Assembly: GCF_037975245.1 (NCBI RefSeq)
Contig: NC_092562.1
Coordinates: 26,277,054 to 26,341,053, forward strand
Origin: Apostichopus japonicus
Lineage: Eukaryota; Echinodermata; Holothuroidea; Aspidochirotida; Stichopodidae
Length of the DNA stretch: 64,000 bases
Direction of reading: 5' to 3'
Shown here: one piece after another, positions 11,546 through 64,000 of the stretch
Layout: each line of letters opens with the position of its first letter
Numbering within the stretch: the first letter of the stretch is position 1
Notes under the pieces: generated by a model
Told to the model about the DNA's origin: nothing
What the model saw: only the letters and a program-made list of their open reading frames with translations
Databases searched by the model: none
Made by a program: the position numbers and the translations under genes

Positions 11546-11620
11546 TCAATAGATCACAGAATAGTCATCTTGGTTGTTCAAGTAACACCTCAGTAACTTC
11601 AGACACAGAGTGTAATTATC
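11546..11620 (-). CDS. Exon 28: last exon, PTP D2 C-terminal helix and stop
   Basis: Acceptor TTTTTTTATTTCAG; 25 codons including TGA. DNYTLCLKLLRCYLNN matches the closing PTP helix (QYxLCYxxxLEYL), followed by QDDYSVIY and the stop, so the protein ends almost immediately after D2. No strong polyadenylation signal was identified just downstream. Confidence 0.83.
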   Translation of the reverse strand, partial: DNYTLCLKLLRCYLNNQDDYSVIY

Positions 11621-14600
11621 CTGAAATAAAAAAAAGGAAAATTCAAAAGAAGAAAAATTAACACTCCTTGTTTGTTGTAGGTCCTAACCTGACTGAATTT
11701 ATCGTGTTTAAACTCAATCTTCAAACGTATCAATCATAACGAGAAGAATAATCAGTAAGAATAAAAAAAACATGAATGTTCTCTAGGTTTCCAACAATAT
11801 ATGTATGCTTCAATGTCATGTTTCTTAAGTAGTTTAACATGTATGCTAAACATAACTCAATGATAGCAAGCTACACATTAAAATACTAACCTGTGATAGC
11901 ATGAAGTTTACATTTTTCCTTCTCAATTTCTGCACAGCCAGGTATACATCACAAGCGCCTTCTTTCTCCAGACATTGAATTTGAGTTTTAGCTGTAACAT
12001 ACACAGCACTGACACCAACTCCATTTCTGAAATGAGATTTACAAAAGACCAATTTGTTCTCCTGACTGTCTACGCATTTTGCAGTGGTGAGGAATCCTTT
12101 AAATTATGAATTACTGCTAAATAATTTTGTATGCATTCTAAACATTCAGTGTCCAAACCTGTTTATTAAAACACCACTAAACATATCATTTATTAGCATC
12201 TTGTGCAATGCAGTGCTGTAAAGTTGTGCATTTTCAACTTTCAACATGTTCAATTATTAAATTTGCCATTTATCCAAATAATATTAGCTTTTATATATAT
12301 CTTCCAGCAAATTAATATGCAAATAAGTAAAGATACATACAGACAGTGGATAAGTGTAGGACCAGATGTTACGTTTCTAGTTGACTGTATGAAATCTACC
12401 ATCTTAGGGAGAGCTTCATCATCACCAAGCAATGCTTCAAAAGTCAAGTGATTCACAGTAACTGGATCCTGAGAAAATGAACAAGTAAATAATATACAAA
12501 TTAGAGATATTTTCAATGCAAGATGAAATCAGTAAGGTAAACTATTTAAGTAGAAAGCAATGAGAACCATTTAAGAATACTTAAAGTAAACCTGATTTGA
12601 ACAAAGATGATCAAGGATGTTCATAAATTAGTCTTGTTTCATTGATTTCACAGATGTACCTCATTCTCATAGTCTTGGTGATTGACTTCAAATGTCTGTG
12701 TTTTCAACAGATCTTGACGTTCAGTGTTAACACACTTCACTGTGATGGATCCAAAAGTGATCAACCCAGAATCTGGCCAATACTTTGCAGCAGTCTGTAG
12801 AATAACACAATGAAGATAGAAATACAATACAAATACCTAACCATCTTATGAGTTCCCTGCTATTCATAAAAAGAACTATTAAAATTAAAAAAGTGTTTTA
12901 TGGACAACAAGATGCATTACTAGGTTTAATTTTATTGCAAACCAGATCCTCAGATGACACATCTAGATCTGCACATCAAAAATGAAAAAAACAAAATAAA
13001 ACACAAATATTGTTGAGATGCCATAGTAAATACCAAATTTTTTTTTTAAAGCATTTTTAGATGACTCAAACACTTCTCAGACTCCATTCTCTCATAGCTC
13101 CTGACCACTCCAATCAGCAATTATAGCATTGGAGAACTATTTGTGGTTACAAAACCAGATATAACCAGATAGAAACTAAACTATGAGCACCCAGTTCTGT
13201 GTTTTAAAAGATAAGAAGATGCTAGTTGGACAGGAGGCATAAAGCATTAGATCTTATTAGATCAGTCTGGTATGGTGAGATCATTGATCGCTGATCTTAC
13301 ACAATGCAAGTTGATTTAATTTTTATGGATAAGACTGGGCTGTAAGCCTTTGCCTTCGCTGATGATAACAATCATAAATGAAGGTCCAATTTTGTCTCAT
13401 TCCAAAATATGCAAAAGTTTGCAAACAAGCGGATATATACAATAAACATTATCAAGTAATTTGGGCATTAGAACATGACAGGGTTGTTGAATTTGTCATT
13501 CTTTGGAGAAACACAAAATCTTTTCATACTCATTCTGCTCAGAACTTGTCTGATTTCTCAAGACATTTTATCTTTAGGGTTCAGGTTACAACAGGCTTGT
13601 AGATGGTCATGATCAATCAGTTTCTTAATTGTTAACCATCATGGAACATCCAACTTGTCTAATTTAGCACATTATCCCAGATAATTTGGAGCAAATGATG
13701 TGAGGTATATGCATGGGTTGTGAGAGATTTAATGATGCAGACAGATAAAGTGACATATCTTAACAAAGCTAACTTGCTTGCATTACATTTCTTGCAAAAG
13801 TATTTCATGTGTTTTTACAAACCTTGTTAGCTGTGCTCATGTCTTTCAGCATGATAATGGTACTGCATTTGTAATCATAGACAAGTCTCCAAAAATCTTC
13901 CAAGATTGAAGCCAGAGGATGTTGCGTCAAAATAATTGAACCATCATCCTATATTAAACATAAAAATCATTATATTTTGTACAAGAAAGTAAGGCACACA
14001 AAAAGCAAAAGATTTCAAACAAGCATTTTCAAATAGAAAAAAAAAAAAACACCTACAGATTTTTCTTAACAAACATATGTTGACTGGGTTAAGAAATTCT
14101 GGTAGTTCTCCTGCGTTGTTTTAAATTCAACTCTTGAATCAGATCTTTTCATCGAAACCACATCCATAGAACATTTTGTATTATGGGTCTATACATTTTC
14201 AAATTATTTTGCAGAGTTTAAAGTATTAACCTACTGATAAATGGTATATTCTTGCAAAGAAGTTGCATAATATTAAATGCAGAAAATATTGATATCCAAG
14301 CAAAAGTCCCAAGGATATATTGCTGTAAGTAATATGAAAGTTGAACTTGAAGAATATATACCATTATGAAATCATGGACGACCTCCTACTTACAGGTAAA
14401 CATAGTTGACACTGATACAACAGTATCAATAATTAAAGTTTAAGGGCACTGACTTGATGCTGATATATTGTATGCACGCAAAAAACCATTGTACTCCAGG
14501 TTGTATTTGTATACCACTGTTTATCTGTCAGATTGTATATAAATACCACTGTTTATCTTTCAAAAACGATCTTCGAAGCATCTGAGGCACCTAATTTTAA

Positions 14601-17600
14601 ATGACTGGACTACTCAGTCTATCACACATAACTTGTAGTCAGTTTCTCAGATGTGACACAAAACTCAATAGTAAACTATGAGACTTTTATGGCATCATAT
14701 CAAAATTTTATTGAGCATAAACATTTTGTCAGGTACTAATACATTGTTGAATGTACCCAGAGGGTGTTGTGTTATCATACAACAGTTTTGGTTGTATTCT
14801 TTACACTGATAAAAAGAACAATGAGTTTAACTTTAAGATAAACTTTAAGGACAGCTGATTTCATCATCCATTTGAAAGTATATCACATGATTGAATTAAG
14901 GATATCTGAATATCTTGAAATTCTGAATACCTGTTAAAGCACTTGTCTTCAAAACTACAATCAAATCCTGCTAAATCATCTAGCTTAAATGATATACAAG
15001 ATATTGAGATTCGGTTTTCAATTAAACTTGCAGAATATTTTCTCTGCCATGGAAGTGAAACCTTTTCTACTAGGGTAAATGATTAAATATACATCTTAAA
15101 ACCCCATCAATATACAGCGACATGAACTAACCGATCTGTACTCTACTATCGTATTTGGTACTATATTCACACAAAGGACGCATGGTGCAAACATCACGTG
15201 AGTCTTGAGCTGCTTGCCTTAATTATAAAATAGAGTTTACTGTGCAGGCCACTGTGTAGGCTCAAATGCAATGCTTTCTGCTTACATGCGGGATCTTAAC
15301 CTAGAATACCATCAAAATTTACAAGAATTTAGAAAACCACTAGTTTAGGCAAAGCTTGTTAATAAATCTTCATGTATACAAATACCAACCTGCAACTTGG
15401 TAGCATTAATATAATCATTGCTGCCAAGAGAAACACCATTTGACTTTAAGACTGGTCTGTAGGAGTCCACTGTAAAGAATTCAATAAATCATCTAAGACA
15501 AAATTTGAGCAAATTCTGAATTTGCTGGATACTTTTATGATGGCAAATCAGTCTGAATAAACAAATATGTTTTCCATTGTCATTGTAAACAAAGTTTGAA
15601 GCAAATTTAATAATTTAATCCCGTATTCATTGATTTTATATCTATTTAAACATTTGATGACAACAATATAACAGCTATGTACAAAACTATTGTGCTACAA
15701 TAAACACAAACCAAATTGGCCAAAAAAATAAAGTGTAGTAAGAAAAACAACGATTTTGATCATACCAGTAAATATAAAGAAAAATTTGGAATGAAGCATT
15801 TTGTATAGTTTTCTTAATAAAGTGCCTAAGACAATTAAAAGGCAAAAACTGAATTAAGAGGCATATTTAGACTGTAATTACGATTTGTATAAGGAGCTTA
15901 AAACGGAAGTTTGTGCTAATAAATAATAATCAACTAAAAATTTCCAGTACTTAATAGGTAAGGGGACTGACCCTTAACGGGGGAGCCAGCAGAGAATGAA
16001 GGATTTTATGAAAGAGACAGTGTGGCTTTTAGGTCACTGAAGCGGACTTATTTGTAGGGGTGGAGGTCCTCCTCCGGAAGCAAATGAGACGTTATATAGT
16101 GCATATAAGTTAGGTCTTTTGAAGTAGCCATAAATGCAAGGTTTTACTAATAAATACTGTTTATGATGCTAAAAGGAAGAGAGGGGTCCTATTCTCCCTC
16201 AGCAAAATAAAAAAAGTTCCCTGACTAAATTTTCCCAACAACAGACAATCGGAGGAGGAACCAAAGTCCCCCTGGCCTTCCCCTTTGCGCATGCCATTGA
16301 TTGAAGGCTTTGTACATACAAGGAATGATCCCAGGAAATCTGTTTTTGTAGGCATTCTCTTGGGCTTCTCCGATCTGCTGCTGCTGTGGCATGGTAAGTT
16401 TTTGGATCTTTGTCAGTGCCTGAGGGAGAAAGTAAGAAAAATATTGATATTGATAATATCTATATTGATAATAAAAACAAACATGACATTCACAAGTCAG
16501 TAAGCTAAAAATGTATTTGATGATTAATCTACAAATTAACAACCTCAGCTAAGACATTATTAGTGTCCATTGGTTTAACTATAAGATGTTTCTTACAATG
16601 TTTCTTATGATTGTACAGGAAGAATGTAAGGGAATAATGCTATGAACTTGTCTTTAGTGAGATGTTTGTAACTGTACTGTAAGTGTACTGTACTGAATCA
16701 CACGTAACCACTGATGACAGGTGAATGTGTTAATATAAGTTACAGTAAATCCGTCCGTCCGTCCGTCCGTCCATCCATCCATCTATCTAACAAAGATTCA
16801 AAAAACAACATAAATAAGTTGGAAAATACCAAAGTATATCAGCAGAGTATATTTAAGATGAGGAAACCATATTACAATGCTCAATTACTTTTCATTCTCC
16901 TCATGCATGCTGATTAAATACTCAATGGAGCCTTGTTACAGATTAATGGAGTAACTAAGCATTGGACCCTAAATGCTTTAAACAAACATAAATACTTTTA
17001 GATGTATAGAAATGAAAAAAACAACAAATTTGGAGGATTATCAGCAATTCATGCTATGTTCTAATTAGGTCCCTTTTTGAATTACTGATGATTTTAAATT
17101 ACATTAAAGTGAATAAATTAAAGTATATCTTTAACATCATTTCATAGAAACAGAAAACTTCAAGTTACATTTAGTGCATTGCAGCAGTGAAACACATTTA
17201 CCCAATAGCAAGTCTCACTAAATTTTAAGAAAACATATTTTCTCAAACACAAAAACTGCAAATTTATTACTTTAGTAAATTTGAATTTATTACTAAATCA
17301 CAAACCCGGGTAAGGACCATGTCCATTCTGTCTTCTCTCATATTTCTGATGACATTATAGATGCTGATTGTGCTATTAGATCTAAGGACATCCACCAGTT
17401 GGTACAGGGCTAGAAAAGTACCTGTTGATCCACTCCCATCTCTGTTAAAAAACCATTGCCGAATTATTTACTGAAAATTCACTTCTATGTAAGCATTCAT
17501 GATAAACATCTTTATAATCTATCTTCACTTCACTGTTTCAAATACTAGTTATTGTCTGTTTTGCTACGATGGAAATGTAGCTTTTAGTCAACCATGTAAA

Positions 17601-20600
17601 GATATCAATTGCAACAAGAAATAGTATCTGCTTTTTTATATTTATTAATCATATTTGTTATGTTTACTAATATCTGTAAGTGATGAAAGATTGTAAAACA
17701 CAAGGAGTGTTCCTAATATTATACCATATAAAAGAATTTGACAATGCAAATTGTAGTATGAAAATTTACATATTAGTTTCATGTAGGTCTGAATCCTAAA
17801 CTTTCAAGTACATTAGCAGAAAACTTGTTACCTGCAGTGGATGAGCATAGGTGACATCTTTGTCTGCTCTTGCTTCATCTTCACCTGTTTAATGAAGTCA
17901 ATCAGGTTTGTGTAATCTTCCGGAACTCCTCCTTGAGGCCAACCGTGAAATTGAAGCTGGTGGACATTTAGAATTTTGTCATCATGTATCTAGAGAAAAA
18001 AACACACATTGTAATGATAAGTGTTACATAACAGAGCTAAAGGTTGGATTTCAAAATAGATAATCCAACTACATATTACAAAAACTAATGACTAATGTAA
18101 ACAAAGAAACATGGATTAATGTTTGTGTGTAAAGCATGTATCACATCCACTATATGGTAGCATGCATCTGTATTAATTTGTTGTTTGAGGACAAACTTCA
18201 TGATAACAAGAATGATGCATATCACAAAGAAGGGATAGGACTGCCAAAACAGGCCTCAATTGTTTAGTAACAACGTTTGAGCTTTTATATGAAGTACGTA
18301 ACCTCTGCCATGATATATAAACACCTGTGGAATCCTTTAACTACCTGCAGCTGTGTTTATCACAGTGTAAAACACTCACAAAAAAGAAAAAAAACATGAT
18401 CATGTGTGAAAAACATGAATTTGTGGAACAAAATTTAGATCTAAAATGGCAAGTCATTGTGTTTCTTTGTGTAATTCATGTAAAAATGAATGGAAAATGG
18501 ATCTTGACACATTAAACAAAATGATAAAATGTACGTTTTGACATATAGCAAATCTAATGCAACTTAACTGAAGCGTAAGGTAGTGTTTGCAACTGCGTAA
18601 TTCCTGTACACTATTAAAAAACCAGAATAATCTGTCTACTTTACAATGGCTCACTGAAAGTAGACATAAGGGATATGTACATCAACACAATATGAATATT
18701 TCACTCACGTCACTGATTATCTTCAGCTTTCTGTTCGTGTATGTTTGATGATTGGTTGTCTCCTGCAAAAACACGTTCAACTCACCGAACGCCTCAGAAG
18801 TTTTCACTTTCTTAGGCCAATAGCTATAAACATCTTCATCCTTAGACAAGACAAAGGATATACAAAATGAAACATAATATAAAGATTCTCTGGAGTATAC
18901 TAGGTGAATTCCTACTGCAATGTTTTAATTTGTTTTAAGTCTGTATCAGCACAAGGAAATAATGTTCTTCACACGCCCTTAATAAATCTAGTATTAAATC
19001 GTAGTAATATTAAGAAAACTTGAAACTGAAAATTCAAAGTGCATGTGATTGAGACTATGCTGGAATTTTGAGCACATGGAGGAAGTTGATTGGATGTGAA
19101 GTTAATTTCAGATTAATTAGCCGCTTTTCAACCTAAGAATTATGAAAATGCTAAAAATAAAATTGACAGTACGTTGCTCATGATACAGTGTAGTCCAGCC
19201 TATGTTAGTTGCAAACAAATAACTGTAATTGATTGTCATATATATCTAACAATATTTTCATGAAATGACATATTCAATCAGGTGTTTATATGTATCCAGT
19301 TCATATTATATCAAGGCATTTGTTAAATGAATTTGATTAAAAGTCTAAACATATCAATGACTTATGTTGCAATCTAAAATTAAACATTTTACCGAACTGT
19401 CAACCAGCATGACTAATGTCCTGACATCTTGTTGCCAAATTATTCTCCAAAATTGTTCTGAAAGACTTTTACTTTGAGGTCCTAGGAATAAATGAAGAAG
19501 TATTGATAACGAAAGGCATTGAATGTTATTATTTCAAAAAACACAGCAACTTAACTATTTGTAAATAATATGCTCACAATTGTTTCCAGAAGAATATGCT
19601 TAGTACTAAATGGTCAACTGTTCTGCAACATGTTTTCATGTCATATCTTCAGAAGTTAACATCTGGTTATGTTATAGTGTCAGATGTACACAATGACATT
19701 GTCCATTATTAGTATTGGTACCACCCATCTATATTGTGGTGGCATTTATTAACATTTTAGTTCTGATTGCTCCACCAAAGACTAACGGCACAAGATAGTT
19801 TTGAAAGTAAGGTTCATGGGCTACTAAGTGTTGGCTAAAATGAAAGTCAAAGTACTTTGTTGATTAAATCACCTTAAAGTAACATATTCAACTAATATAG
19901 GGGTCCATAGTTCACTTAAAACTCCAAAACTTACTGGTTTGGATATTTATGAGTGATAAGCTTACCTGTCTCCCCACAACCTTAGCACACTCATTCTACC
20001 GCGCCTAGAATGTCTTGGTAATCTTTTAACACTATGCACCCTCTGTGACCTGGCTTCACAGGTCTCTGCCCTTCCTTCTCATGAGACCAAAGCCCCTCCA
20101 AAGTGGTCTCTGCCTTGGAGTCGAGTAGTAGTCCTTCCCGACAAAATGGCTACCCCCCCAACTCCTAGCCTAACATCAAATTTCTGAAGCTTCCGATGAG
20201 AGGGGTAGTACTCTCCGCCCTGTGGGGAGGGGGGGGGGACTACCCTCTACAACCCTGTACACGCCTGTACCCCTTAGCTCTAACAAAGGAGACCTAGCAG
20301 AAGATACTCTACAAGTCAAGTCAGTGCGAATGCTTCTCCGTCCGGCTGTGTTCCAACCCCCTCGGGGAGGGAGGCGGGAATGGAGACGGGTAAGCTCGTC
20401 ACTCGTAAATATCCAAACCAGTAAGTTTTGGAATATTTACTTCGCTCCTCGCTTACCTGTCTCCCCACAACCTTAGCACTGAGTGGCACTGCCCAATGGT
20501 GGGAGGCCCAAAGGTGGAACCTAGTACCCGCCGGACCTCGCATCACCGCGCTAAAAATGCCGCCTCGGCTTGTAATGAGTCTGAAAGGTAACAGGCGACG

Positions 20601-56600: not shown

Positions 56601-59600
56601 GAATTGACCATATACATATTATATCTTTATTAATATTAAAGATCTGTGGTATATTGAAATACAATGTCTGGTGCTTTGCTTAAAACAGTCAGACTACTGA
56701 ATGACATGCTCTACAGCCACCCTGAATATTTGGGTCATGACAGAATGAAGAATAATCAGTATGTAGGCCACCAGTTTGGTAAACACTGAGCACAGCTCCA
56801 TTATAGGCATAATGCCCATAGTGGATTAAAATAGTATGATTTGAGATTAGATGAGAAATTGACAGTATGAAACAAACTACATTCCTAACTGGATACACAC
56901 AGCAGGCAAAACATTGTTGAAGAGCTATTATTGTATGCGTTGTGGAAAATTTTGAAACATTTCCAGCTAAGTGGATGTATCTCATTGTGAATACTCATTA
57001 ATGAATAAGTTGTGTTTATAATAAAGCAAGTATAAACTGATTTATATTCCTTGAGCTTTGACCTCCAGCTGTTGCCATTGTAGAGTAGGTTTTATAGTTT
57101 TTTAATTCTTAATTTTTGAGGTTTGCCTTCTATTCAAACTGTCTCCCTTGTATTTATATCAAAAAGCTGCTTTCTACAACATTCAACTTTTGACCTCTGA
57201 ACTATTATCATGCAGAAGGTCTTTAAAGAATAAGTCCCTATCATAGGGCAATTCTTTGTACCAAATTTGAAAGTTATCGGTTGAGTTGCTGAGGAGAGGT
57301 TTACTTTAAGTACTACTAATATTATACAAAGTTCTTTGACTTCAATTGCCATGAAAACCTGTGAAAGCAAAAGTTGCCTTTTGCTTAATTTGACCTTTGA
57401 CGCTTTTGTTGCCAGTCGATCTCAGTAACAATGGTAAGCACATATTTTGGTAGTAGTTGACATTCCTATTATACCTGTGTAGATTGAAAGTCAGTGCTTC
57501 CCCTAAATTTGGGTTAAATAGCAGAAAATCATTGTTTCATTCTGAAGATCTCTCAGACAGAAGATACTGTCATGGGGTACTTTCCTACCAAGTTTGGAGA
57601 AAATTAGAAGGGCTGTTGAGAAAAGGTGTTTTGATACAAAATTTGAATTAAAATTATACATTTGACCTTTAACCCTTTGACTTAAATATTTGATAGAACT
57701 TGAAATACACATGTGAAGGCTGCATGTCGATTCAATGTTCCCACTTGGATCTATTATGAAAGAATATATTCACCTCTTACTTAATTTGACTCAATTTGCT
57801 CTTTTAGAAACATATGTTCCCATCATGGGAGACCTGTCTACCAAGCTTGAAGAAATGGGTCCAGCTGATTGATGCAACTGGCAGATATCACAAACACACT
57901 CACAGATGGCTAACTTTTGACCCCCTTCCAGATAATGGACTTCAAGTCACGCATCAGTCACCATATCATGGGTGACTTCTCAAGACTTGCTACTCCAAAA
58001 CATGCACTGTTATGAATATCATCCTTAACTATATCAACTGAAATAGCCTCAATAAGCTCCAATGACATCCAAAGTCTACAAATTTCATACTTCATAGATA
58101 CATTGATACAATTATTGGGATAAGGTAAGAAAAAAAAATCTATCAAACTTAAATTTCATTCATTAACGTTAGTTTACATGCTATCTATAACCTTCATGCA
58201 ACATTGTGAAGACTTGTCACAGATAATATCTTCCAAAATGCTAGTGGAACCAAGTGGATTAGCTATTCAGATGAATAACTATAGCTACAATGCAAACATT
58301 AGTTAAAACTGATTCACTGTTACAGTAAGTATAGGAATCACATTATTCTTACCACGAACAATCAATCTATTCAATCCATGGAGAGCTTCATCTCTTCGAA
58401 AGGCAATATGACACTCATAGAGACCATTATCACCAGTAGCAGCTTCTCTGTCTATGATGATATCTTCAGTCCTCATAGCAAATACATCTGAACCATTGAT
58501 TCTCCAGCTGTACCGAGGCATACCAGCAGGCCAATCCATGTCTATGACGACACCAGTATCTCCTGCATTAACAGTTTGAGTAAACTGTCCATTGACTGGA
58601 ACAACATAAGCTGTAAACATAAAGATTTTGACAATAACATACAGAACACACTTTACATATTTTACATTTTCTGGTTTGTATACATTTATATGCTATATTA
58701 TTCTGTGTTCCAAATTTCATGTCATAACAGATTGGTTGTAATCATGTTTCAGGTTCATGTCATGTTTACTGTAAATACAGTAATTATCAGGTAATTGTCA
58801 GCAAACCAAACAAAGTTAAATGAGAATTTAAACCCTAGGGTGTTGTAGTGTTCACATTTTTTATAATAAATCAAATAAATAATAATAGCTATATCAGGGA
58901 ATAATTTAACTGGTATCGAATCACAAAATCCTAAGCAACATTTGGGGGGAAATTCAAGTGATACACAAAAAGTGAACAGCAGTCTTTGTACACATGAACA
59001 TTGGAATATTCTATATTATACACAAGATTCAGAGCATTCAAAACTAGAACACAAACTTTGAACACTGATATATTCCCTGCATGTTAACAGCTCTATCATT
59101 ACTACTGTCTGCAGCAACTTACAGGGTCACTTAAATTGGATATAAACTTAATTTAGAAGCTCTCCATGTCTACGGATTGTTTGGAAAAAGAAGATATTGA
59201 TACCTTTGTATTTAGAATTGTATTGTTGGAACCAGAAATAAAATAAAACGTTAAAGAGAACAAACAGAAATACTGTACTCACAAAGGGTTCACCTCGGTC
59301 AATGGTTGCATTGACTCTGTACATAACATACATGTACTACTGCGGACACTGTTTAAAATGCTTAGGTGACTTTGACTGATGTCTTTCCAATCAGCCAGAA
59401 TATAAGTTGTGTTAGCAGCCATGAAATATTATTTAATAATTTGTGGGAGTATTTGAGGTACAAGGAAGAGGAACTACTGTAAGTGCTGGGCATATGACAA
59501 ACAGGCAGGAGTGTATGTTGCATAGCCTGACAGTAGCAGTTAATAATCAATGTGGTTCACGTAAATGTAACTTTTGTAGAACCCTCTGTTTTGAAATTAG

Positions 59601-62600: not shown

Positions 62601-63000
62601 TTCATTGTTACAAAACACAGTCAATTTTGAACAGATTTTGTATATTTGAGCTTAAATTCAGTAAACTCACCATTAGCATGCAGGAACATAGTCATGATGG
62701 TAGTATCCTCTCTATCATCCTTCTTTGCTGTACAATTGAAAACACCAAATGCATTGCTATTAGCAGGGGTAATGGAAAAGGTATATCCAGCTGTGTTTGC
62801 AGGAAGGTCTGGGATCATGGTGCCACTCACTGTGGAGACAGGATGCGGACCATTAGGTCTTGTGTCATAAGCTCTAATTGAAGTCACAGCTGCATCATCA
62901 TCTCCTGCTCCAAGATAACACTCAAAGTGAGGAAGAGGCCGAGTAGAAACAGATCCAGCATCTTTTGACTTGAATGACATCACACTCATCTGAACCTTAT
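11546..63000 (-). CDS. Tie-like receptor pseudophosphatase: Ig-Ig-EGFx5-Ig-FN3x2-TM-PTP-PTP, 28 exons, 5' incomplete
   Basis: Full span of the host gene; exons are listed separately. Twenty-eight exons chain from 63000 down to the TGA at 11546-11548 with compatible phases throughout, about 1,440 residues. Seen: Ig1 (~1-110), Ig2 (~111-196), five EGF modules (~197-437), Ig3 (~438-535), FN3 (~536-640), FN3 (~641-748), one transmembrane helix (~755-778), a Tyr-rich juxtamembrane segment (~807-941), PTP D1 (~942-1190), PTP D2 (~1200-1440). The ectodomain resembles Tie1/Tie2 but the cytoplasmic part is a tandem receptor-type PTP. Both catalytic P-loops lack Arg, so no phosphatase activity is expected. 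Sequons for N-glycosylation lie in Ig1, Ig2, Ig3, an EGF and both FN3 domains. The signal peptide exon was not found and probably lies beyond the window. The alternative, two neighbouring genes, is unlikely because the phase chain runs unbroken through the TM. Confidence 0.88.
11891..12026 (-). CDS. Exon 27: PTP D2, P-loop without catalytic Arg
   Basis: Acceptor CTCATTTCAG; donor TCACAG|GTTAGT; phase 2 in, 0 out. The junction gives HCLNGVGVSAVYVTAKTQIQ; Val stands where HCx5R needs Arg. HCLNG is typical of D2 domains of type IIB receptor PTPs. Ends NVNFMLSQ. Confidence 0.84.
12341..12468 (-). CDS. Exon 26: PTP D2, lost WPD loop and P-loop Cys
   Basis: Acceptor TTTTCTCAG; donor CACTGTCT|GTATGT; phase 0 in, 2 out. 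VNHLTFEALLGDDEALP occupies the place of FTxWPDxGVP, so the WPD loop is lost. Ends GPTLIHC, with the P-loop Cys retained. Confidence 0.84.
12660..12794 (-). CDS. Exon 25: PTP D2, YWP segment
   Basis: Acceptor CTGTAG-type CTACAG; donor AATGAG|GTACAT; phase 0-0, 45 codons. KYWPDSGLITFGSITVKC, then TQTFEVNHQDYE, the normal strand order before the WPD loop. Confidence 0.83.
13823..13948 (-). CDS. Exon 24: PTP D2, FW segment
   Basis: Acceptor TTTAATATAG; donor AACAAG|GTTTGT; phase 0-0, 42 codons. SIILTQHPLASILEDFWRLV, then STIIMLKDM, equivalent to the conserved ATQGPL...DFWRMVW...IVML block. Confidence 0.84.
15390..15469 (-). CDS. Exon 23: PTP D2, RPxL and DYINA segment
   Basis: Acceptor TTCTTTACAG; donor TTGCAG|GTTGGT; phase 1 in, 0 out. 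Gives LDSYRPVLKSNG and GSNDYINATKLQ, the D2 counterpart of the PYDHxR...DYINA block. Confidence 0.83.
16320..16419 (-). CDS. Exon 22: D1-D2 linker and start of PTP D2
   Basis: Acceptor TTTCTCCCTCAG; donor ATTCCTT|GTATGT; phase 0 in, 1 out. ALTKIQKLTMPQQQQIGEAQ, then YKNRFPGIIP, the KNRY-type motif opening D2 (KNRF here). Confidence 0.82.
16751..16790. repeat. (CCGT)n(CCAT)n(CTAT)n microsatellite
   Basis: Compound tetranucleotide repeat in intron 21, the region where a missing D1 micro-exon might lie. Confidence 0.9.
17306..17441 (-). CDS. Exon 21: PTP D1, P-loop without catalytic Arg
   Basis: Acceptor TTTTTTAACAG; donor likely ACCCGG|GTTTGT; phase 2 in, 0 out. Joined to exon 20, the signature reads HCRDGSGSTGTFLALYQLVD. 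In the HCx5R motif the invariant Arg is Ser. RMDMVLT replaces RxxMVQT, so the Q-loop Gln is also gone. The QYxFI helix usual after this point is not encoded here. Confidence 0.84.
17832..17989 (-). CDS. Exon 20: PTP D1, degenerate WPD loop and P-loop Cys
   Basis: Acceptor TTTTTCTCTAG; donor CACTGCAG|GTAACA; phase 0 in, 2 out. VHQLQFHGWPQGGVPEDY: the general-acid Asp of WPD is Gln. Ends PMLIHC, the start of the P-loop with the nucleophilic Cys retained. Confidence 0.86.
18709..18840 (-). CDS. Exon 19: PTP D1, YWP segment
   Basis: Acceptor GTCTTGTCTAAG; donor AGTGAC|GTGAGT; phase 0-0, 44 codons. Has SYWPKKV (conserved YWP), a beta-strand block FGELNVFLQETT and YTNRKLKIISD, typical of the PTP core before the WPD loop. 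Confidence 0.83.
19393..19481 (-). CDS. Exon 18: PTP D1, FW-W segment
   Basis: Acceptor TTTATTCCTAG; donor AGTTCG|GTAAAA; phase 1 in, 0 out. Encodes GPQSKSLSEQFWRIIWQQDV, then RTLVMLVDSS, equivalent to the conserved DFWRMIWEQ...IVMLT block. Confidence 0.83.
20390..20470. repeat. DIRS internal complementary region
   Basis: Bases 20390-20431 are the reverse complement of the left end 19924-19965 (about 40 of 42 match). Bases 20432-20470 are the reverse complement of the right end near 23312-23348. Juxtaposed copies of both element ends are the hallmark of the DIRS circular intermediate template. Confidence 0.82.
20543..21499 (-). pseudogene. DIRS tyrosine recombinase, frameshifted
   Basis: The N-terminal core-binding part (STVATYDSRLRKFREWC, VSTIKNYRSAITPIHHGF) continues the gag frame. 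Near 21150 the frame shifts, and the catalytic part lies in another frame with one further in-frame TAG near 20905. Catalytic residues are still visible: an Arg in LIALASARRRSCLHALS, HxxR in AHDIRGVGAS, then AAAWRTPTMFVACYL with the Tyr nucleophile. It would have cut and rejoined circular element DNA during integration; now inactive. Confidence 0.7.
21500..23202 (-). pseudogene. DIRS gag-like gene, degraded
   Basis: Same-frame open segments at 22969-23202 (MVPRKGKEKGKAPTKKK, strongly basic), 22324-22611 (acidic, LEDEFTGSLEEEEIPM) and 21500-22053 (FTSFLMLTAEVLMRHHQQL, LGDDLFAGNFQQKLQEE, then an RG/RP-rich tail) are separated by stop codons. LFxGxFxxxLxE near the end is typical of DIRS Gag. Not expected to be functional. 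Other-frame ORFs on both strands here are shadows. Confidence 0.6.
23787..23823 (-). CDS. Exon 17: PTP D1, 37-base micro-exon
   Basis: Acceptor TTTTCAG; donor GCAAGAG|GTAAAC; phase 0 in, 1 out. Encodes ARNGKARFIAAR and joins to GPQ in exon 18, matching the family's FIAxQGP strand. The DIRS-type element lies in the intron that follows. Confidence 0.8.
25164..25240 (-). CDS. Exon 16: PTP D1, phosphotyrosine-loop region
   Basis: Acceptor GTAAAATTACAAG; donor GATAAAG|GTATAT; phase 1 in, 0 out. Joins to give PYDHTRVKLQVSGN and SDYYNASMIK, the standard PYDHxRVxL and DYINA motifs, which confirms a PTP fold. Confidence 0.84.
25563..26011. mobile_element. hAT-like MITE D
   Basis: 449 bp in intron 15. 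Ends CAGGGATGAGACT and (reverse complement) CAGGCATGAGACT, flanked by TACATG on both sides. Shares the AAGGGGAGGGG/CCCCTCCCCTTT palindrome with MITE C. Long A-rich runs near 25877-25980. The short direct repeat (6 bp) makes superfamily assignment less certain. Confidence 0.65.
26585..26675 (-). CDS. Exon 15: PTP D1, N-terminal helix
   Basis: Acceptor TTTAACCAG; donor ATTCCAT|GTAAGT; phase 0 in, 1 out. VLPRGRQHPCSEAL, then KSKNSLSKIIPY where active PTPs have KNRYxNILPY. The substrate-recognition KNRY motif is changed to KNSL; the tyrosine that normally packs on phosphotyrosine is absent. Confidence 0.82.
26871..27274 (-). CDS. Exon 14: Tyr-rich juxtamembrane segment and start of PTP D1
   Basis: Acceptor GTTCCTATAG; donor GAGTTTATG|GTGAAT; phase 1 in, 0 out. 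A low-complexity acidic segment carries eight tyrosines in short motifs: EYIPL, QYQNP, GYEIP, TYEAV, DYEDP, QYAGV, VYINV, DYMSR. Several fit SH2-binding types (YxxP; YINV as a Grb2-type YxN). It ends RRIVIEDVVKEFM, the helix that opens a PTP domain. Confidence 0.86.
27729..28607. mobile_element. Possible hAT-like element
   Basis: 879 bp in intron 13. Ends TAGGCCTG and CAGGCCTA, with imperfect flanking repeats GTAGAAAC and TTAGTAAC (6 of 8). Repeated (T/G)ACCCG and GGTACCC words near both ends. No transposase ORF. Boundaries are tentative. Confidence 0.4.
28687..28769 (-). CDS. Exon 13: basic stop-transfer and juxtamembrane start
   Basis: Acceptor TTATTTTCAG; donor GATCAAG|GTATTT; phase 2 in, 1 out. 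Encodes RKRSRKASPSTSDPTSF and an acidic end. The RKRSRK cluster sits directly after the helix; SRKAS and the serines are possible kinase sites (inference). Confidence 0.84.
29219..29312 (-). CDS. Exon 12: transmembrane helix
   Basis: Acceptor CCTTTTTTTCAG; donor TTACAG|GTAAGC; phase 1 in, 2 out. About 24 uninterrupted hydrophobic residues from SFAVFIVIP to TFVLIY, followed across the junction by RKRSRK, a stop-transfer signal. This gives type I topology with the PTP domains in the cytoplasm. Confidence 0.9.
29420..29880. other. GC-richer unclassified segment in intron 11
   Basis: Stands out from the AT-rich intron in composition and ends CAGGGCCTGG. It could be an old SINE or LINE tail. No TIR or protein match seen. 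Confidence 0.3.
30316..30571 (-). CDS. Exon 11: FN3 domain 2, second part
   Basis: Acceptor GATCAATAG; donor CAGGAAG|GTTAGT; phase 0 in, 1 out. ITAYTIYYKVDD, LEPGESYTFMVSLSTD and an S/T/P-rich stalk (PMSSTPKPQEG) leading to the membrane. Confidence 0.86.
31026..31093 (-). CDS. Exon 10: FN3 domain 2, first part
   Basis: Acceptor TTATTTACAG; donor TTGGCAG|GTATGT; phase 1 in, 0 out. It encodes VPITPTAVMVKV and ends LNVTWQ, the strand-B tryptophan region where FN3 domains are often split by an intron. Confidence 0.83.
31406..32313 (-). mobile_element. Possible solo LTR
   Basis: In intron 9, a GC-richer block ends (on minus) with TGTAGCGCCCCCAACAGGG, a common LTR start. If the other end is TGGCTGTCAC at 31406, the ends are TG...CA with 4-bp flanks ATAT. 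No internal retroviral genes. The inner boundary is a guess. Confidence 0.4.
32542..32856 (-). CDS. Exon 9: fibronectin type III domain 1
   Basis: Acceptor TTTCTATTCAG; donor TGTGAGG|GTGAGT; phase 1-1. Clear FN3: ISQTSVTIKWRAWGE, VVGYIVYYRKNATDSW, LEEDTIYAFSVSAVRE. The acceptor is only 110 bp from the LTR end at 32967. Confidence 0.88.
32925..32939. repeat. C homopolymer beside exon 9
   Basis: A run of about 15 C between the LTR end and the acceptor of exon 9; on the gene strand a G run some 70 bases upstream of the splice site. Confidence 0.9.
32967..33953 (-). repeat. 3' LTR of the Gmr1-type element
   Basis: 987 bp, matching 39061-40047 at all but about five positions. Short ORFs inside it are duplicated in the other LTR and are not genes. 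Its distal end is 110 bp upstream of host exon 9. Confidence 0.95.
33954..33973 (-). promoter_or_regulatory. Polypurine tract
   Basis: On the minus strand, AAAGGGGGAGT lies directly before the 3' LTR, the expected plus-strand primer site. The last bases before the LTR (AAT) are not purine-only. Confidence 0.7.
34224..36983 (-). CDS. pol: Retrotransposon Pol: integrase then RT-RNase H, one internal stop
   Basis: One reading frame from 36983 to 34224 with a single TAG at 35985-35987. Integrase comes first: HDSIMAGHLG...CKSCDIC zinc-binding motif, then catalytic DDE residues in VAVDIVGP, LTDRGSQFTS and NGLVEKFNGT. After the stop comes a C-terminal integrase tail (LLMQWKGPFTVL). Reverse transcriptase follows with FCVDYRKLNKV, RIDLTKGYWQVEM, MPFGLVGAPAVF and the catalytic NYLDDIL. 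RNase H has LRTDASDVGIGAVLL, ERECLGLVWA and LQTDHEPLTYLN. All catalytic motifs look intact. The IN-RT-RH order marks a Gmr1-type element. The TAG is probably a point mutation; readthrough cannot be excluded. Confidence 0.9.
36971..38806 (-). CDS. gag: Retrotransposon Gag-protease polyprotein (611 aa)
   Basis: Starts MMDIRELTELGAKMGL and passes through a coiled coil of tandem heptads (AEKQRAE; residues ~40-85). A capsid-like helical region follows (~130-290; YSRLPPDDSQDYQKLKKALL, QFLNVCSKELALFL), resembling the SCAN domain, which is thought to derive from Gmr1-like Gag. A zinc-knuckle-like CFVCGKLGLKANDC lies near 340, with Leu where CCHC has His. An aspartic protease motif LRDSGCSGVIV lies near 455. 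The ORF stop overlaps the start of the pol ORF, which is in the -1 frame, so pol may be made by -1 frameshifting or reinitiation; no classical slippery heptamer was recognised. ORF intact. Confidence 0.88.
   Translation of the reverse strand: MMDIRELTELGAKMGLTGGELLNFVKEQQQIAHDERQQERAEAEKQRAEAEKQRAEAEKQRAEAEKQRAEAEKERAEAVKQRMFELAKLEKQAELQQNSNGDADLNSSRSSTSSREPNRIPTPKMPHFDEKEDLDAYLLRFERFATAQEWPEEQWALNLSLCLKGESLRVYSRLPPDDSQDYQKLKKALLKRFQFTEEGFRQKFRRERPKKGETSIQYMARLENYMARWLEMGGINKTFEEFSDLMLREQFLNVCSKELALFLREHDCKTSKALSELADKYLEAHHRDLEKCVKSFQTNQGNGKKPDGNPNSQEYKTKIVDAGENRNTRSAIKCFVCGKLGLKANDCRQRFKAQSAVATENAKPDKLGSSDRSQKDHRSGQTANLCLMKQIKESDSYSINLACGHEIPIVSAACEEPTDITEKILSDVKERMPVVEGYLKGRKVSVLRDSGCSGVIVRRNLISNDQLTGVDQLCVLIDGTVRKIPEAIVVVDTPFFTGSLKALCMKRPVYDLIIGNVPGVRGPENPDPDWSVKEVPSEQCEPHNVEETASVEIGTSVESRDEPEVAADQMIPSDDVGDDSDIGGAVETRAQKQKRNENLKPLKRLMFLWMT
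38577..38690 (-). repeat. 21-bp tandem repeat within gag
   Basis: Five to six copies of a 21-bp unit (TTTCCGCCTCAGCCCTTTGC on +, 20 of its 21 bases) encode repeated AEKQRAE heptads. Nearly perfect copies suggest recent expansion and a length-variable coiled coil. Confidence 0.85.
38914..39042 (-). repeat. Leader tandem repeat, about 35 bp x 4
   Basis: Between the 5' LTR and gag, four degenerate copies of a unit around TTTTAAACAATTCCC(C)GTTTTGTTTCTATC are seen on the + strand. Noncoding leader of the retrotransposon. Confidence 0.65.
39040..39054 (-). promoter_or_regulatory. Candidate primer-binding site
   Basis: On the minus strand, six bases inside the 5' LTR, TGGGGCTTATCCGGG begins with the TGG expected from pairing to a tRNA CCA end. 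The tRNA was not identified. Confidence 0.45.
39061..40047 (-). repeat. 5' LTR of the Gmr1-type element
   Basis: 987 bp, TGTCAC...GTGACA at the ends. Contains a TATA-like CTATATATAAG on the minus strand near 39735-39746, a plausible core promoter. Nearly identical to 32967-33953; differences seen at the CGACT(T/C)AAC, CT(C/T)CATCACC, CTGA(A/T)AGTG, CCGG(T/C)CACC and CCCG(C/T)ATG positions. Confidence 0.95.
40702..40895 (-). other. Possible orphan Ig-like exon in intron 8
   Basis: An open stretch on the gene's strand between acceptor-like CCCTGTAG and donor-like TTTAT|GTAGGT. It encodes QEIDCNNSENLFLGWTIGE, YYWFMQAVN and LIVFRDNQLVIGSELNIMSL, reminiscent of an Ig half-domain. Its phases (0 in, 2 out) do not fit between exons 8 and 9, both phase 1, and the next candidate exon (from 40632) stops quickly. 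It could be a relic exon, an alternative terminal exon for a secreted form, or chance. Confidence 0.25.
41491..41784 (-). CDS. Exon 8: Ig-like domain 3
   Basis: Acceptor TTTACATTACAG; donor CATTATG|GTAAGA; phase 1-1. One Ig fold: the B-strand Cys is in QWSVTCWVEEL and the F-strand in AGDTYYCVIIPG. Sequons NVT and NTT. Placed after the EGF block and before FN3, as in Tie. It joins in frame to exon 9, skipping the Gmr1-type element. Confidence 0.83.
41912..42307. mobile_element. hAT-like MITE B
   Basis: 396 bp in intron 7, bounded by 8-bp direct repeats CAAATGGT (41904-41911 and 42308-42315) and a perfect TIR CAGTGGCGGAGC. The interior shares TGTACGCTCCGCGCCAACC and GGTGGCGCTCCGCT with MITE A, so both belong to one family. 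Confidence 0.8.
43572..43712 (-). CDS. Exon 7: EGF-like module 5
   Basis: Acceptor CTCATTTCAG; donor CAAGAAG|GTAATT; phase 1-1. ECQAGFFGDNCTEVC, then HCDSDACDRVTGEC and a Cys-Cys pair before a proline-containing end (DLPPSRCQE). One sequon (NCT). Confidence 0.84.
44383..44514. repeat. Recent 64-bp tandem duplication
   Basis: The 64-bp unit starting AATTTC(T/C)ACAAATCTTTGC is repeated almost perfectly (44383-44446, 44447-44510), followed by the start of a third copy. Lies in intron 6. Confidence 0.85.
44757..44892. repeat. Short tandem duplication, about 70 bp x 2
   Basis: GGCCT(C/T)TG(T/C)TT...AAAGTAAACATCACAAATAA(C/G)TAGAGAA occurs twice in succession in intron 6, with moderate divergence. 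Confidence 0.65.
44925..45080 (-). CDS. Exon 6: EGF-like module 4
   Basis: Acceptor TTGTCCATAG; donor TGTCTAG|GTAATT; phase 1-1. CPMGYYGNQCTEKC, CLDGAICHKLSGRC, CAPGSVLDPNGQSC. Vertebrate Tie receptors have three EGF modules, so this and the next are extra. Confidence 0.85.
   Translation of the reverse strand, partial: FLMFVQWVTMVTNVQRNVCVLMVLFVISFQEDVKIPVVLQVQFWIQMASPV
45435..45772. repeat. Decayed tandem repeat, left part
   Basis: Degenerate units of about 115-125 bp built on TGACCTTTGACCTCCAC, ACTCAATGTGGTAC, TACACACCAAATTTGAGGTC and TTCCCTTCTTGAGATAT. The array is split by the TTAA element and continues after 47560. Confidence 0.6.
45777..47555 (+). mobile_element. TTAA-flanked DNA transposon relic encoding a THAP domain
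   Basis: 1,779 bp in intron 5 bounded by TTAA on both sides (45773-45776 and 47556-47559). Imperfect terminal inverted repeats: AGATGAACGATAGTGA against AGTAGAACGACAGTGA. The flanks rejoin to restore a local repeat motif (GAGGTCTGCTTAAAGCTTCCCTT-like), which supports clean insertion. It encodes a THAP zinc finger but no recognisable catalytic domain. TTAA duplications plus THAP suggest Kolobok; piggyBac also uses TTAA but normally has other TIRs. Confidence 0.65.
46117..46386 (+). pseudogene. THAP domain coding fragment
   Basis: An open frame directly after an acceptor-like CACTAG reads NCVVGGCNRTNVDSTISFF, then FPSGKSSERYRKLWIRFVRR and KVCSAHFTEDD. It has all four zinc ligands of THAP (C-x4-C near the start, C-x2-H in CSAHF) and the conserved FP and W. 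There is no ATG ahead of it, and it stops soon after HFTEDD, before the usual AVPTIF-type box, so it is an exon or a truncated relic of a transposase. Confidence 0.65.
47560..47870. repeat. Decayed tandem repeat, right part
   Basis: Continuation of the array at 45435. CTTCCCTTCTTGAGATAT recurs at about 47561, 47684 and 47826, with TTTGACC and ACCTCCAC words between. Short ORFs here reflect the repeat, not genes. Confidence 0.6.
48000..51092. other. Intron 5 remainder, nothing recognised
   Basis: Very AT-rich intron sequence without supported exons or identifiable mobile elements. Confidence 0.5.
51093..51227 (-). CDS. Exon 5: EGF-like module 3
   Basis: Acceptor TTTGTTTACAG; donor TGTCAGA|GTAAGT; phase 1-1. 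Laminin-type EGF: VCEPGKYGAGCLQDC, HCQNQGSCNRFTGEC, WSGNNC. Matches Tie EGF3 in position and spacing. Confidence 0.87.
52251..52406 (-). CDS. Exon 4: EGF-like module 2 (Tie-type)
   Basis: Acceptor TTCTTTTAG; donor AGTGG|GTGAAT; phase 1-1. It has GCGPDKFGYSCEFEC followed by the unusual block LFCLIDPFGCRCNSGF. This corresponds to the Tie-specific FCLPDPYGCSC block of the second Tie EGF module and is the most diagnostic single match in the gene. Confidence 0.88.
53164..53298 (-). CDS. Exon 3: EGF-like module 1 (Tie-type)
   Basis: Acceptor TTAATAG; donor CTGACAG|GTTTGT; phase 1-1. Eight-cysteine laminin-type EGF: ACSSGRWGPPGC, then CDNCYNGGVCDDETG, then CICAPGFMGQNC. The CxPGFMGxxC ending is very close to Tie2 EGF1. 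Confidence 0.88.
54558..56249 (+). repeat. GTGACTCGCGTGAC motif array, nine perfect copies
   Basis: Perfect copies start at 54558, 54737, 54927, 54949, 55705, 55719, 56055, 56069 and 56236; a decayed copy is at about 55887. Structure: GTGAC-TCGC-GTGAC. All point the same way, and three pairs are adjacent or nearly so. CpG-rich words in AT-rich surroundings suggest a conserved protein-binding site rather than drift. Confidence 0.85.
55671..56360 (+). repeat. Tandem duplication, about 350 bp x 2
   Basis: 55671-56020 and 56021-56360 are near-identical, both starting CAGTAAATAGG and ending TAATTAGTCCAA, each carrying a doubled GTGACTCGCGTGAC. In the first copy the third motif has decayed to GTGACTCTGTGAC; in the second it is intact. 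Confidence 0.85.
57050..57960. repeat. Diverged repeat with TTTGACCT words
   Basis: An irregular repeat with phrases such as TTTGACCTCCA, ACCAAATTTGAAAGTTATCGGTTGAG, ACCTTTGACGCT and CTACCAAGCTTGAAGAAAT. It resembles a widespread invertebrate repeat type and has lost clear periodicity. Noncoding. Confidence 0.4.
58353..58610 (-). CDS. Exon 2: Ig-like domain 2
   Basis: Acceptor ATGTTTACAG; donor TTCGTG|GTAAGA; phase 1-1. It encodes one Ig fold with MPRYSWRINGSDV and TGDNGLYECHIAF, ending GLNRLIVR. The F-strand Cys is present but its B-strand partner is missing (VVIDMDW), so the canonical disulfide cannot form. The ending FxRLIVR and the position straight before the EGF modules match Tie2. Confidence 0.85.
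59000..61200. other. Intron 1 part, nothing recognised
   Basis: AT-rich; a C/G-richer stretch at 60640-60900 has no bounded repeat structure or ORF homology visible. Confidence 0.5.
61202..61320 (+). repeat. tRNA-derived SINE head (decayed)
   Basis: TTGGCTAAGGTGTCGGACTC fits a Pol III box A and continues CGTGATCATTGG as in many tRNA-derived SINE heads. The box B region (GGAGGGATTCTTTC) is degraded and the cloverleaf does not close, so this is not a working tRNA gene. Confidence 0.45.
62671..63000 (-). CDS. Exon 1 of those visible: Ig-like domain 1
   Basis: Acceptor TTTTTTTCAG ends at 63001; donor AATG|GTGAGT. Phase 1 in and out. Two Ig cysteines are visible, in PHFECYLGAG and FGVFNCTAKK, and the domain ends TTIMTMFLHAN, resembling the end of the first Tie2 Ig domain. 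A sequon (NCT) is present. This is not the true first exon: it starts in phase 1 with no signal peptide. Confidence 0.85.
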
Positions 63001-64000
63001 CTGAAAAAAATAACAATATGATCATAATGAAATATAAATCGCAGATATCTCTATATTCAGATTCTTCTTAACACAGAAATTTCACACTGAGTTTTCATCC
63101 ATGTATACATATTGCTTAGCTTTTTGTCATGCTGGATGTAACTTAAGGTTTCCAGATGCAAGTAAAATAAATTATGTTAACAGTAGCATAACCAGACCTC
63201 TTCATTTGGAGGTGGGAGGGGGCAAGGAGAAAGGTGTTGAGTGGCTTTTTCCACACATCTAAAACTTTGTGTGATATCTCTCCCACGTCTTTCTCCAAAT
63301 TCTCCCGCTCAAGGTCCCCCTTATCTCTTGTTTTTTTTTTTAGGGATGGGTTAGCTACCCCATTGCCTGCCTGCCCACCCCCCCCCCGTGGTATGAGAAA
63401 GTTACAATAATCGAAGCTGATAACTATGTGTGCTCTATTATCAGACTGCCTTTAGATACTGCCTTTAGATGACCTTACACTAATCCTATACAAGTACACT
63501 TCAAGACTGGAAATTACACTTGTTATATGTTTATAAAGTAAAAACCATGTAATGAATGAACGCCATCTAGTGAAAAAGTGTAATTTGCATGCATGTAAAC
63601 TGTGTTTATTGCAGTTATTATCGCATTTTTGTTTTCTTCTAAAAGTATGGTAGTGTAAATTAAGACGTTAGAGTTAAAGATATGGAAATTTGTACAATCT
63701 ACAAAGGGTTACATATATACTGTCCTCAGTCTTCTAGATTATTCTTGGTAACAATGACTGTCTCAAAGACTCATACGATGTTCAGAGATCTCTATAACTA
63801 ACAAAACAATATGCAAAGTAACTCATTAATATTCATAAACTAAAGGGACTGCATCAAGGAAGCATGTGCAAATGTAAACTCTACAGCCAATTACCTGGAA
63901 ACGCAACTGAGTGTGCCCTTGTTAGCAGGGTCATGTAATGAAATCCTCAAGAAATAAGAACGTTTCATATATTTTCTATCCTCAAGTCACTTCAGCTTTG
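63001..64000. other. Upstream intron, first exon not identified
   Basis: Should contain intron and possibly the first coding exon. C- and G-rich patches near 63210-63390. A phase-compatible but weak start candidate lies at 63895-63934. Confidence 0.4.

Follow-up and report, generated by a model that had tools for sequence, protein, structure and literature searches.

Can a single gene place the extracellular part of a Tie-like receptor on the tail of a receptor tyrosine phosphatase, and what would such a receptor do? The question is raised by a 64,000-nucleotide stretch of the Apostichopus japonicus genome (C2:26277054-26341053; this whole stretch is the window, and feature coordinates are window positions unless given in Mb), for which a preliminary description had proposed an angiopoietin-receptor-like head on a phosphatase tail. 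The best explanation as a whole, to which we give about an even chance, is an echinoderm family of receptors with a Tie-like head and tandem protein tyrosine phosphatase (PTP) domains, in which matched heads on active and dead tails form a paired-receptor-like set.

The gene was rebuilt on the minus strand from 63000 to a stop codon at 11546. Its 28 exons encode 1440 residues (plus one codon split with the preceding exon) without an internal stop; AG acceptors and GT donors are used throughout, and the chain of 27 phase-compatible junctions on one strand that had first been described was recovered in full (27/27). The domain order is Ig1, Ig2, EGF1 to EGF5, a third Ig-like domain, two FN3 domains, a transmembrane (TM) helix, a juxtamembrane region, and PTP domains D1 and D2. 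In the head, Ig1 is encoded at 62671..63000 (identical in NCBI protein P0001), Ig2 at 58353..58610, EGF1 at 53164..53298, EGF2 at 52251..52406, EGF3 at 51093..51227, EGF4 at 44925..45080, EGF5 at 43572..43712, the third Ig-like domain at 41491..41784 (no Pfam match), FN3 domain 1 at 32542..32856 (recognized by Pfam), and the first and second halves of FN3 domain 2 at 31026..31093 and 30316..30571, all on the minus strand. The Tie motifs on which the preliminary description relied are all present: LNRLIVR at the end of Ig2, CAPGFMGQNC in EGF1, and FCLIDPFGCRC in EGF2. The intron between the third Ig-like domain and FN3 holds a retrotransposon (32881-39593) with gag-like and pol ORFs (34224-38806, minus strand) and repeated flanks, in which the ORFs at 33164-33499 and 39258-39593 translate identically.

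P0001 (A. japonicus, uncharacterized protein isoform X3) matches the window model exactly at residues 4-240 and 293-1181. The EGF2 exon is left out of P0001, which ends (MVLTR) in the intron behind the D1 active-site exon and does not cover D2. Since P0001 is identical to the model, the exons belong to one annotated gene and are not a chance chain, and P0001 and its siblings run the head into PTP sequence, which bears out the proposal of a Tie-like head and a tandem PTP tail in a single gene. That two adjacent genes, one for a Tie-like ectodomain and one for a phosphatase, had been wrongly joined has hardly any chance of being right: head proteins without a precomputed PTP domain exist (P0010, P0021, P0023, P0026, and P0027) and the retrotransposon does sit in the Ig3-FN3 intron, but a fusion artefact is ruled out by P0001, which runs from Ig1 through the TM helix into D1 with residues identical to the window, and by siblings P0002, P0003, and P0006, which extend through D2, and PTP domains under such heads recur in echinoids and a crinoid.

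The ectodomain had been expected to match Tie best, and the best solved relatives of the head are indeed Tie2. By sequence, the best PDB match of the window head is Tie2 (4.3e-36), starting near the end of the Ig2 exon and reaching EGF3. By fold, the model predicted for P0010, a Holothuria relative (mean pLDDT, 81.6), gave Tie2 as the top two PDB entries in Foldseek (4k0v, 1.3e-32; 2gy5, 9.0e-26). Pfam recognized FN3 (1.1e-15), Y_phosphatase twice (PF00102; 1.3e-57 and 1.3e-42), and, weakly, the EGFs in the window protein. Because it recognized no Ig domain at E values up to 1, the assignment of Ig1 and Ig2 rests on the Tie2 fold match of P0010. The Ig-Ig-EGF1-3 module of the Tie family is present in the window protein by these matches, and Tie1, Tie2 (TEK), and the echinoderm Tie proteins P0069 and P0074 share with the window head this module, RLIVR, PGFMG, and FCLxDPxGCxC. 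Tie receptors have three membrane-proximal FN3 domains and a cytoplasmic tyrosine kinase. The window protein differs in having five EGFs, two FN3 domains, and tandem PTP domains instead of the kinase, of which the Pfam scan found none. A head tree of 62 rows was built without MEGF rows (P0067, P0070, P0072, and P0079, with no detected module, were dropped, and 15 of the 57 homologues were not entered); in it, PTP-tailed heads stood apart from 14 of 18 kinase-tailed rows, with a weakly supported deep split (72/46). An origin of the ectodomain among MEGF proteins is made less likely by its two Ig domains and by the match to the Tie2 fold. "Tie-like" is a safe label for the head and "Tie" is not.

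The tail has the layout of a receptor PTP, a TM helix (29219..29312) followed by tandem PTP domains. Two juxtamembrane exons (28687..28769 and 26871..27274) lie between them, the second carrying YIPL, YQNP, YEIP, YEAV, YEDP, YAGV, and YINV and the start of D1. D1 continues at 26585..26675, with KNSL at the KNRY position of the phosphotyrosine loop; a start of this exon at 26716 was rejected because the phase does not fit. Further D1 exons lie at 25164..25240 (YDHTRV and SDYYNA), 23787..23823, 19393..19481 (FWRIIW), and 18709..18840 (YWP). The exon at 17832..17989 begins the active-site loop and reads WPQGGVP, so that the WPD aspartate is lost, and the exon at 17306..17441 reads HCRDGSGSTG where active siblings have HCSAGVGRTG, with serine at the position of the catalytic HCX5R arginine. 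The D1-D2 linker and the start of D2 (KNRF) are encoded at 16320..16419, and D2 continues at 15390..15469, 13823..13948, 12660..12794 (YWP), and 12341..12468 (no WPD motif; start of the active-site loop). The exon at 11891..12026 reads HCLNGVGVSA, with valine for the catalytic arginine, and the exon at 11546..11620 holds the D2 C terminus and the stop codon; all tail exons are on the minus strand. One D1 intron contains a GC-rich element (20174-23304) with a tyrosine-recombinase-like ORF (DIRS-like by eye), and similar sequence is fused, again by eye, into the A. japonicus models P0020 and P0034.

Both PTP domains of the window copy are thus predicted to be catalytically dead, a feature absent from the preliminary description. 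With the HCX5R arginine missing from D1 and D2 and the WPD aspartate missing from D1, a working phosphatase in this copy is unsupported; of the angiopoietin-receptor-like head on a phosphatase tail, the Tie-like head and the tandem PTP domains stand, and the working enzyme does not. The preliminary description had read the gene as an active receptor phosphatase that uses an angiopoietin-receptor head to oppose Tie kinase signalling. Siblings P0005, P0009, and P0011, which have close heads, keep intact HCSAGVGRTG and WPD motifs in D1, and Tie kinases are encoded in the same genomes, both of which favor an active enzyme; the catalytic residues lost from the window copy make this reading very improbable. 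An active tail hidden downstream in the window was also considered and rejected: whole-window tblastn with active tails matched the dead exons (11.8-25.3 kb) and, apart from these, just one stretch of the plus strand in the 20-kb element, weakly (E 0.68). In the 10 kb beyond the window on the downstream side, active-tail or leader queries gave nothing below E 0.1.

Loss of the catalytic residues has not been accompanied by free drift of the domains. Between the window and a dead-tail sibling, gene A, dN/dS (counting method, bootstrap over codons, values from this one gene pair) was 0.28 in D1 (95% CI, 0.16-0.49; 235 codons) and 0.31 in D2 (95% CI, 0.19-0.52; 255 codons), and values of about 0.3 indicate that the dead domains have been under constraint. 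For the dead sibling P0044, structure prediction (mean pLDDT, 76.9) gave a fold that matches RPTP alpha D1-D2 (2.6e-45). Loss of the HCX5R arginine with retention of the fold is known from CD45 D2 and other inactive RPTP domains. The D1 loop of the window protein is similar to that of CD45 D2; in CD45 the dead domain is D2 alone, while in the window protein both domains are predicted to be dead. PTPRU is an RPTP reported to be inactive in both domains.

The closest vertebrate tails were sought with D1 of the active relative P0033 and with the P0016 tail. Among single-domain PDB entries, P0033 D1 scored highest with the R2B receptors PTPRT (260.9 bits), PTPRK (251.4), and PTPRM (248.6), against 238.3 for alpha D1 and 184.9 for PTPRB, and the tandem entries of LAR and alpha scored highest overall; with the P0016 tail, PTPRA supplied the named vertebrate proteins among the best 120 listed. 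The R2B group (PTPRK/M/T/U) has a MAM-Ig-FN3 head; the Pfam scan found no MAM domain in the window protein, whose head is Tie-like. VE-PTP (PTPRB) is a receptor phosphatase functionally linked to Tie2, and it had been offered as the comparison for this gene. Since P0033 D1 scores 184.9 bits with PTPRB and 260.9 with PTPRT, that comparison was not borne out. R3 receptors are described in PMC5336234 as having FN3-only heads and a single PTP domain; compared with R3 receptors and VE-PTP, the window protein has two PTP domains and Ig and EGF domains in its head.

Relatives of the window protein were found in other echinoderms, among which the preliminary description had proposed to search. Residues 1-800 matched 57 homologues at E 1e-3 or better, of which 31 carry PF00102, 7 a kinase domain, and 2, which hardly differ from one another, a 7TM/GPS tail (tails from precomputed Pfam; the full head is not kept in all 31 PTP-tailed proteins). 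The PTP-tailed members of named species belong to holothurians, echinoids, and one crinoid (P0049). None is from a sea star or brittle star, which is weak evidence for absence because the candidates were limited by shared words. P0021 has the head without a PTP tail, and P0203, read by eye, has a dead tail under a head without the Tie module. P0043 (2082 aa) combines a Tie-like head with extra EGFs, several FN3 domains, and tandem PTP domains and forms a long branch in both head and tail trees. In A. japonicus, P0038 and P0042 place a Tie-like head on a GPS and 7TM tail of the adhesion-GPCR type (precomputed Pfam). The amphioxus PTPs P0227 and P0268 were considered as instances of the same fusion and rejected, the Tie Ig-EGF module being absent on reading. 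P0227 and P0237 (Branchiostoma lanceolatum) are receptor PTPs with a precomputed fibrinogen domain (PF00147), the fold of the angiopoietin ligand.

Separate Tie kinases also exist. The true Tie kinase gene that the preliminary description had suggested looking for is represented in A. japonicus by P0074 (C2:2.54-2.57 Mb), with more P0074-like exons at C2:2.46-2.48 Mb and C12:6.99-7.02 Mb, and in Holothuria by P0073. A Tie kinase gene adjoining the receptor cluster was ruled out, since the two lie on the same contig, C2, but >20 Mb apart. The literature searched contained no account of a Tie-like head on a PTP tail; the likeliest earlier source, Byrum et al. 2006 on sea urchin phosphatases, lay outside its reach, so an earlier description is possible. 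Among automatically annotated proteins, about 30 from echinoderms are already of this type, named as RPTP or as Tie. The claim that no receptor of this architecture had been described fits the literature searched, and the architecture is not unique to this gene.

In the predicted proteins, identity between siblings breaks at the FN3/TM border, directly after the exon at 30316..30571. Between the window protein and active-tail P0005, identity per 60 residues is 61-97% as far as FN3 and drops to 25-44% beyond it; Holothuria P0008 (dead) and P0009 (active) are 73-98% identical to residue 780 and then 15-59% identical past the TM block. In a tree of 43 tails (some near-duplicates left out; PTPRA the only vertebrate rows), 10 of 11 arginine-less tails formed one clade spanning both holothurian genera (100/98), and the eleventh, P0187, which has lysine, fell outside it. 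The active tails P0005, P0046, P0009, and P0011 formed another clade (100/100). The heads, in contrast, sort by species: Holothuria P0008 (dead), P0009 (active), P0010 (no PTP), and P0011 (active) group together, and A. japonicus P0005 (active) groups with the window and its dead siblings. Topology tests rejected a single clade for the dead-tail heads (p-AU, 2.7e-65), for the active-tail heads (3.0e-58), and for the tested A. japonicus tails taken together (2.1e-44); these values are model-dependent and come with several long branches and with groups chosen after the first trees. The reverse of the holothurian pattern was observed in Lytechinus pictus, where the tails of P0033 and P0191 are nearly identical (up to 382 identical residues running) and the heads fall to 67% in one block. 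The holothurian head pattern shows in the DNA as well: at synonymous sites the head differs from that of the window by 0.118 in dead-tail gene A and by 0.128, about as little, in an active-tail gene, gene B. For window versus gene B, dN/dS was 1.77 in Ig2 (95% CI, 0.90-4.21), which is no more than suggestive of positive selection, and 0.28 in the EGFs.

Six-frame searches of the assembly placed these genes in tandem clusters. Among 50 matches for Ig1, 13 were window-type exons; for the juxtamembrane exons, 9 of 61 matches were dead-type and 4 of 57 were active-type. All three are minimum counts, and apart from the window and gene A, whose active sites were read, units were assigned a type from the similarity of their exons. 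When heads and tails were paired by position, active and dead units were interleaved on the plus strand of C2 at 23.3-23.8 Mb (23.30 active, 23.37 dead, 23.44 active, 23.53 active, 23.60 dead, and 23.74 active), with dead-tail gene A followed by active-tail gene B at 23.61-23.81 Mb. The window's own cluster, on the minus strand at C2:26.3-26.6 Mb, has dead-type tails in 5 of 5 units found (26.61, 26.55, 26.49, 26.43, and 26.34 Mb, the last being the window), and two dead-type units lie on C19 (8.02 and 8.10 Mb). Similar heads on tails of opposite predicted activity within one cluster are a feature of paired receptors of the KIR, SIRP, and PIR type, which likewise form tandem clusters with like heads that are closer within than between species. 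The difference is that the opposition here would be between active and dead phosphatase domains.

Shared heads might also arise mainly by alternative splicing across tandem units rather than by gene conversion or crossing-over. The NCBI isoforms P0044 (X2, dead tail) and P0046 (X3, active tail) are identical over their first 116 residues, and P0044 maps to gene A (C2:23.660-23.723 Mb). P0046 uses the FN3 exons of gene A, and the closest match to its tail, including the exon edges, is gene B (91-100% per stretch), with a TM exon about 112 kb farther downstream; P0005 could be a product of the same kind. P0046 is, however, a predicted model that could be a chaining artefact, and gene B has its own head, close to that of the window, before its active tail, for which splicing gives no account. 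P0005 and P0009 are known as annotation models, not as genomic units. We consider splicing unlikely as the main source of the shared heads. A tentative and rather doubtful account is that both tail types are older than the split between Apostichopus and Holothuria and that heads have been homogenized per lineage by exchange within one intron, possibly with cross-gene splicing, so that a quickly changing Tie-like head over active and dead tyrosine-bearing tails serves as a paired-receptor system.

The alternative that survives best concerns the window copy itself, which could be a young pseudogene, a unit of a real family that no longer makes a membrane receptor. Its leader exon lies about 1.8 kb past position 64000 (window coordinates 65764-65868; C2:26342817-26342921), in frame, and starts with TTG where gene B has ATG, with no in-frame ATG upstream before a stop. 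Between 17306 and 16419 the window copy lacks a 44-residue exon (VQYLYIYDTLQQ...) with which P0002, P0003, and P0006 complete D1, and the intron at this place (16420..17305) is shorter than its counterpart in gene A. Neither of the NCBI models P0001 and P0002 has a leader; both start within Ig1, and P0001 runs out in an intron after MVLTR. Against decay, the 1440 codons over 28 exons contain zero stops or frameshifts, the exons flanking the missing D1 exon join in phase 0, so that its loss keeps the frame, and the exon-skipping isoform P0001 suggests transcript support. The TTG is a single base that could be an allele or an assembly error, and an alternative leader could be used. Lacking an initiator ATG and one D1 exon, the window copy may not make a surface receptor; we regard a pseudogene as a serious contender, at somewhat less than even chances. 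The existence of the receptor family is independent of the answer.

For the family with matched heads, the juxtamembrane regions offer a possible role for the dead tails. Among the 22 of 25 tails that could be measured, 8 dead tails have 6-13 juxtamembrane tyrosines and 5 active tails with sister heads have 3-4, and YINV or YINI occurs in 7 of the 8 dead juxtamembranes. More distant active tails have 2-8, with P0033 and P0012 reaching 7-8. The contrast partly reflects juxtamembrane length, which is 104-144 residues in dead tails and 81-129 in active sisters; the density in P0005 (4 in 81) is nearly that of the window (8 in 144).

The arrangement of matched heads on active and dead tails is the most interesting part of the finding. 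By analogy, we infer scaffolding and competition by the dead tails. The head would bind a secreted fibrinogen-domain ligand (FREP or angiopoietin-like). With D1 intact in active siblings and tyrosines in the juxtamembranes of dead tails, a shared ligand would reach either a phosphatase or a phosphotyrosine scaffold: active-tail siblings would dephosphorylate phosphotyrosines near the engaged receptor, and dead-tail receptors would compete with them for the same ligand and substrates and would serve as scaffolds through their juxtamembrane tyrosines. One ligand would thereby give opposite outputs depending on the tail. Exchange between tandem units, with the FN3/TM border as its breakpoint, would keep the matched heads alike, possibly together with cross-unit splicing.

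Angiopoietins have a fibrinogen fold. Fibrinogen-related proteins are given as the most expanded family in the A. japonicus genome paper (PMC5638244). On both grounds, fibrinogen-domain proteins are candidate ligands, and the expansion offers a testable ligand class. The same paper names "tyrosine-protein kinase receptor" among five expanded families (PMC5638244). The A. japonicus proteins P0028, P0034, and P0042 are named "tyrosine-protein kinase" and carry a Tie-like head and no precomputed kinase domain, so part of the published expansion may consist of the receptors described here. "TIE1" is listed among the top genes of an immune-gene-rich coelomocyte cluster of a regenerating sea cucumber in PMC11925454, and the label could denote any of several such receptors. 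In sea cucumbers, the receptors may sense these expanded fibrinogen-related proteins in immunity or during regeneration. More broadly, the Tie ligand-binding head emerges as a module that moves between deuterostome receptors: it occurs on kinase tails, on both active and dead PTP tails, and, in P0038, on a GPS-7TM tail. If matched heads feed opposite tails, paired-receptor logic would here be built from phosphatase and pseudophosphatase domains and not from ITAM and ITIM motifs.
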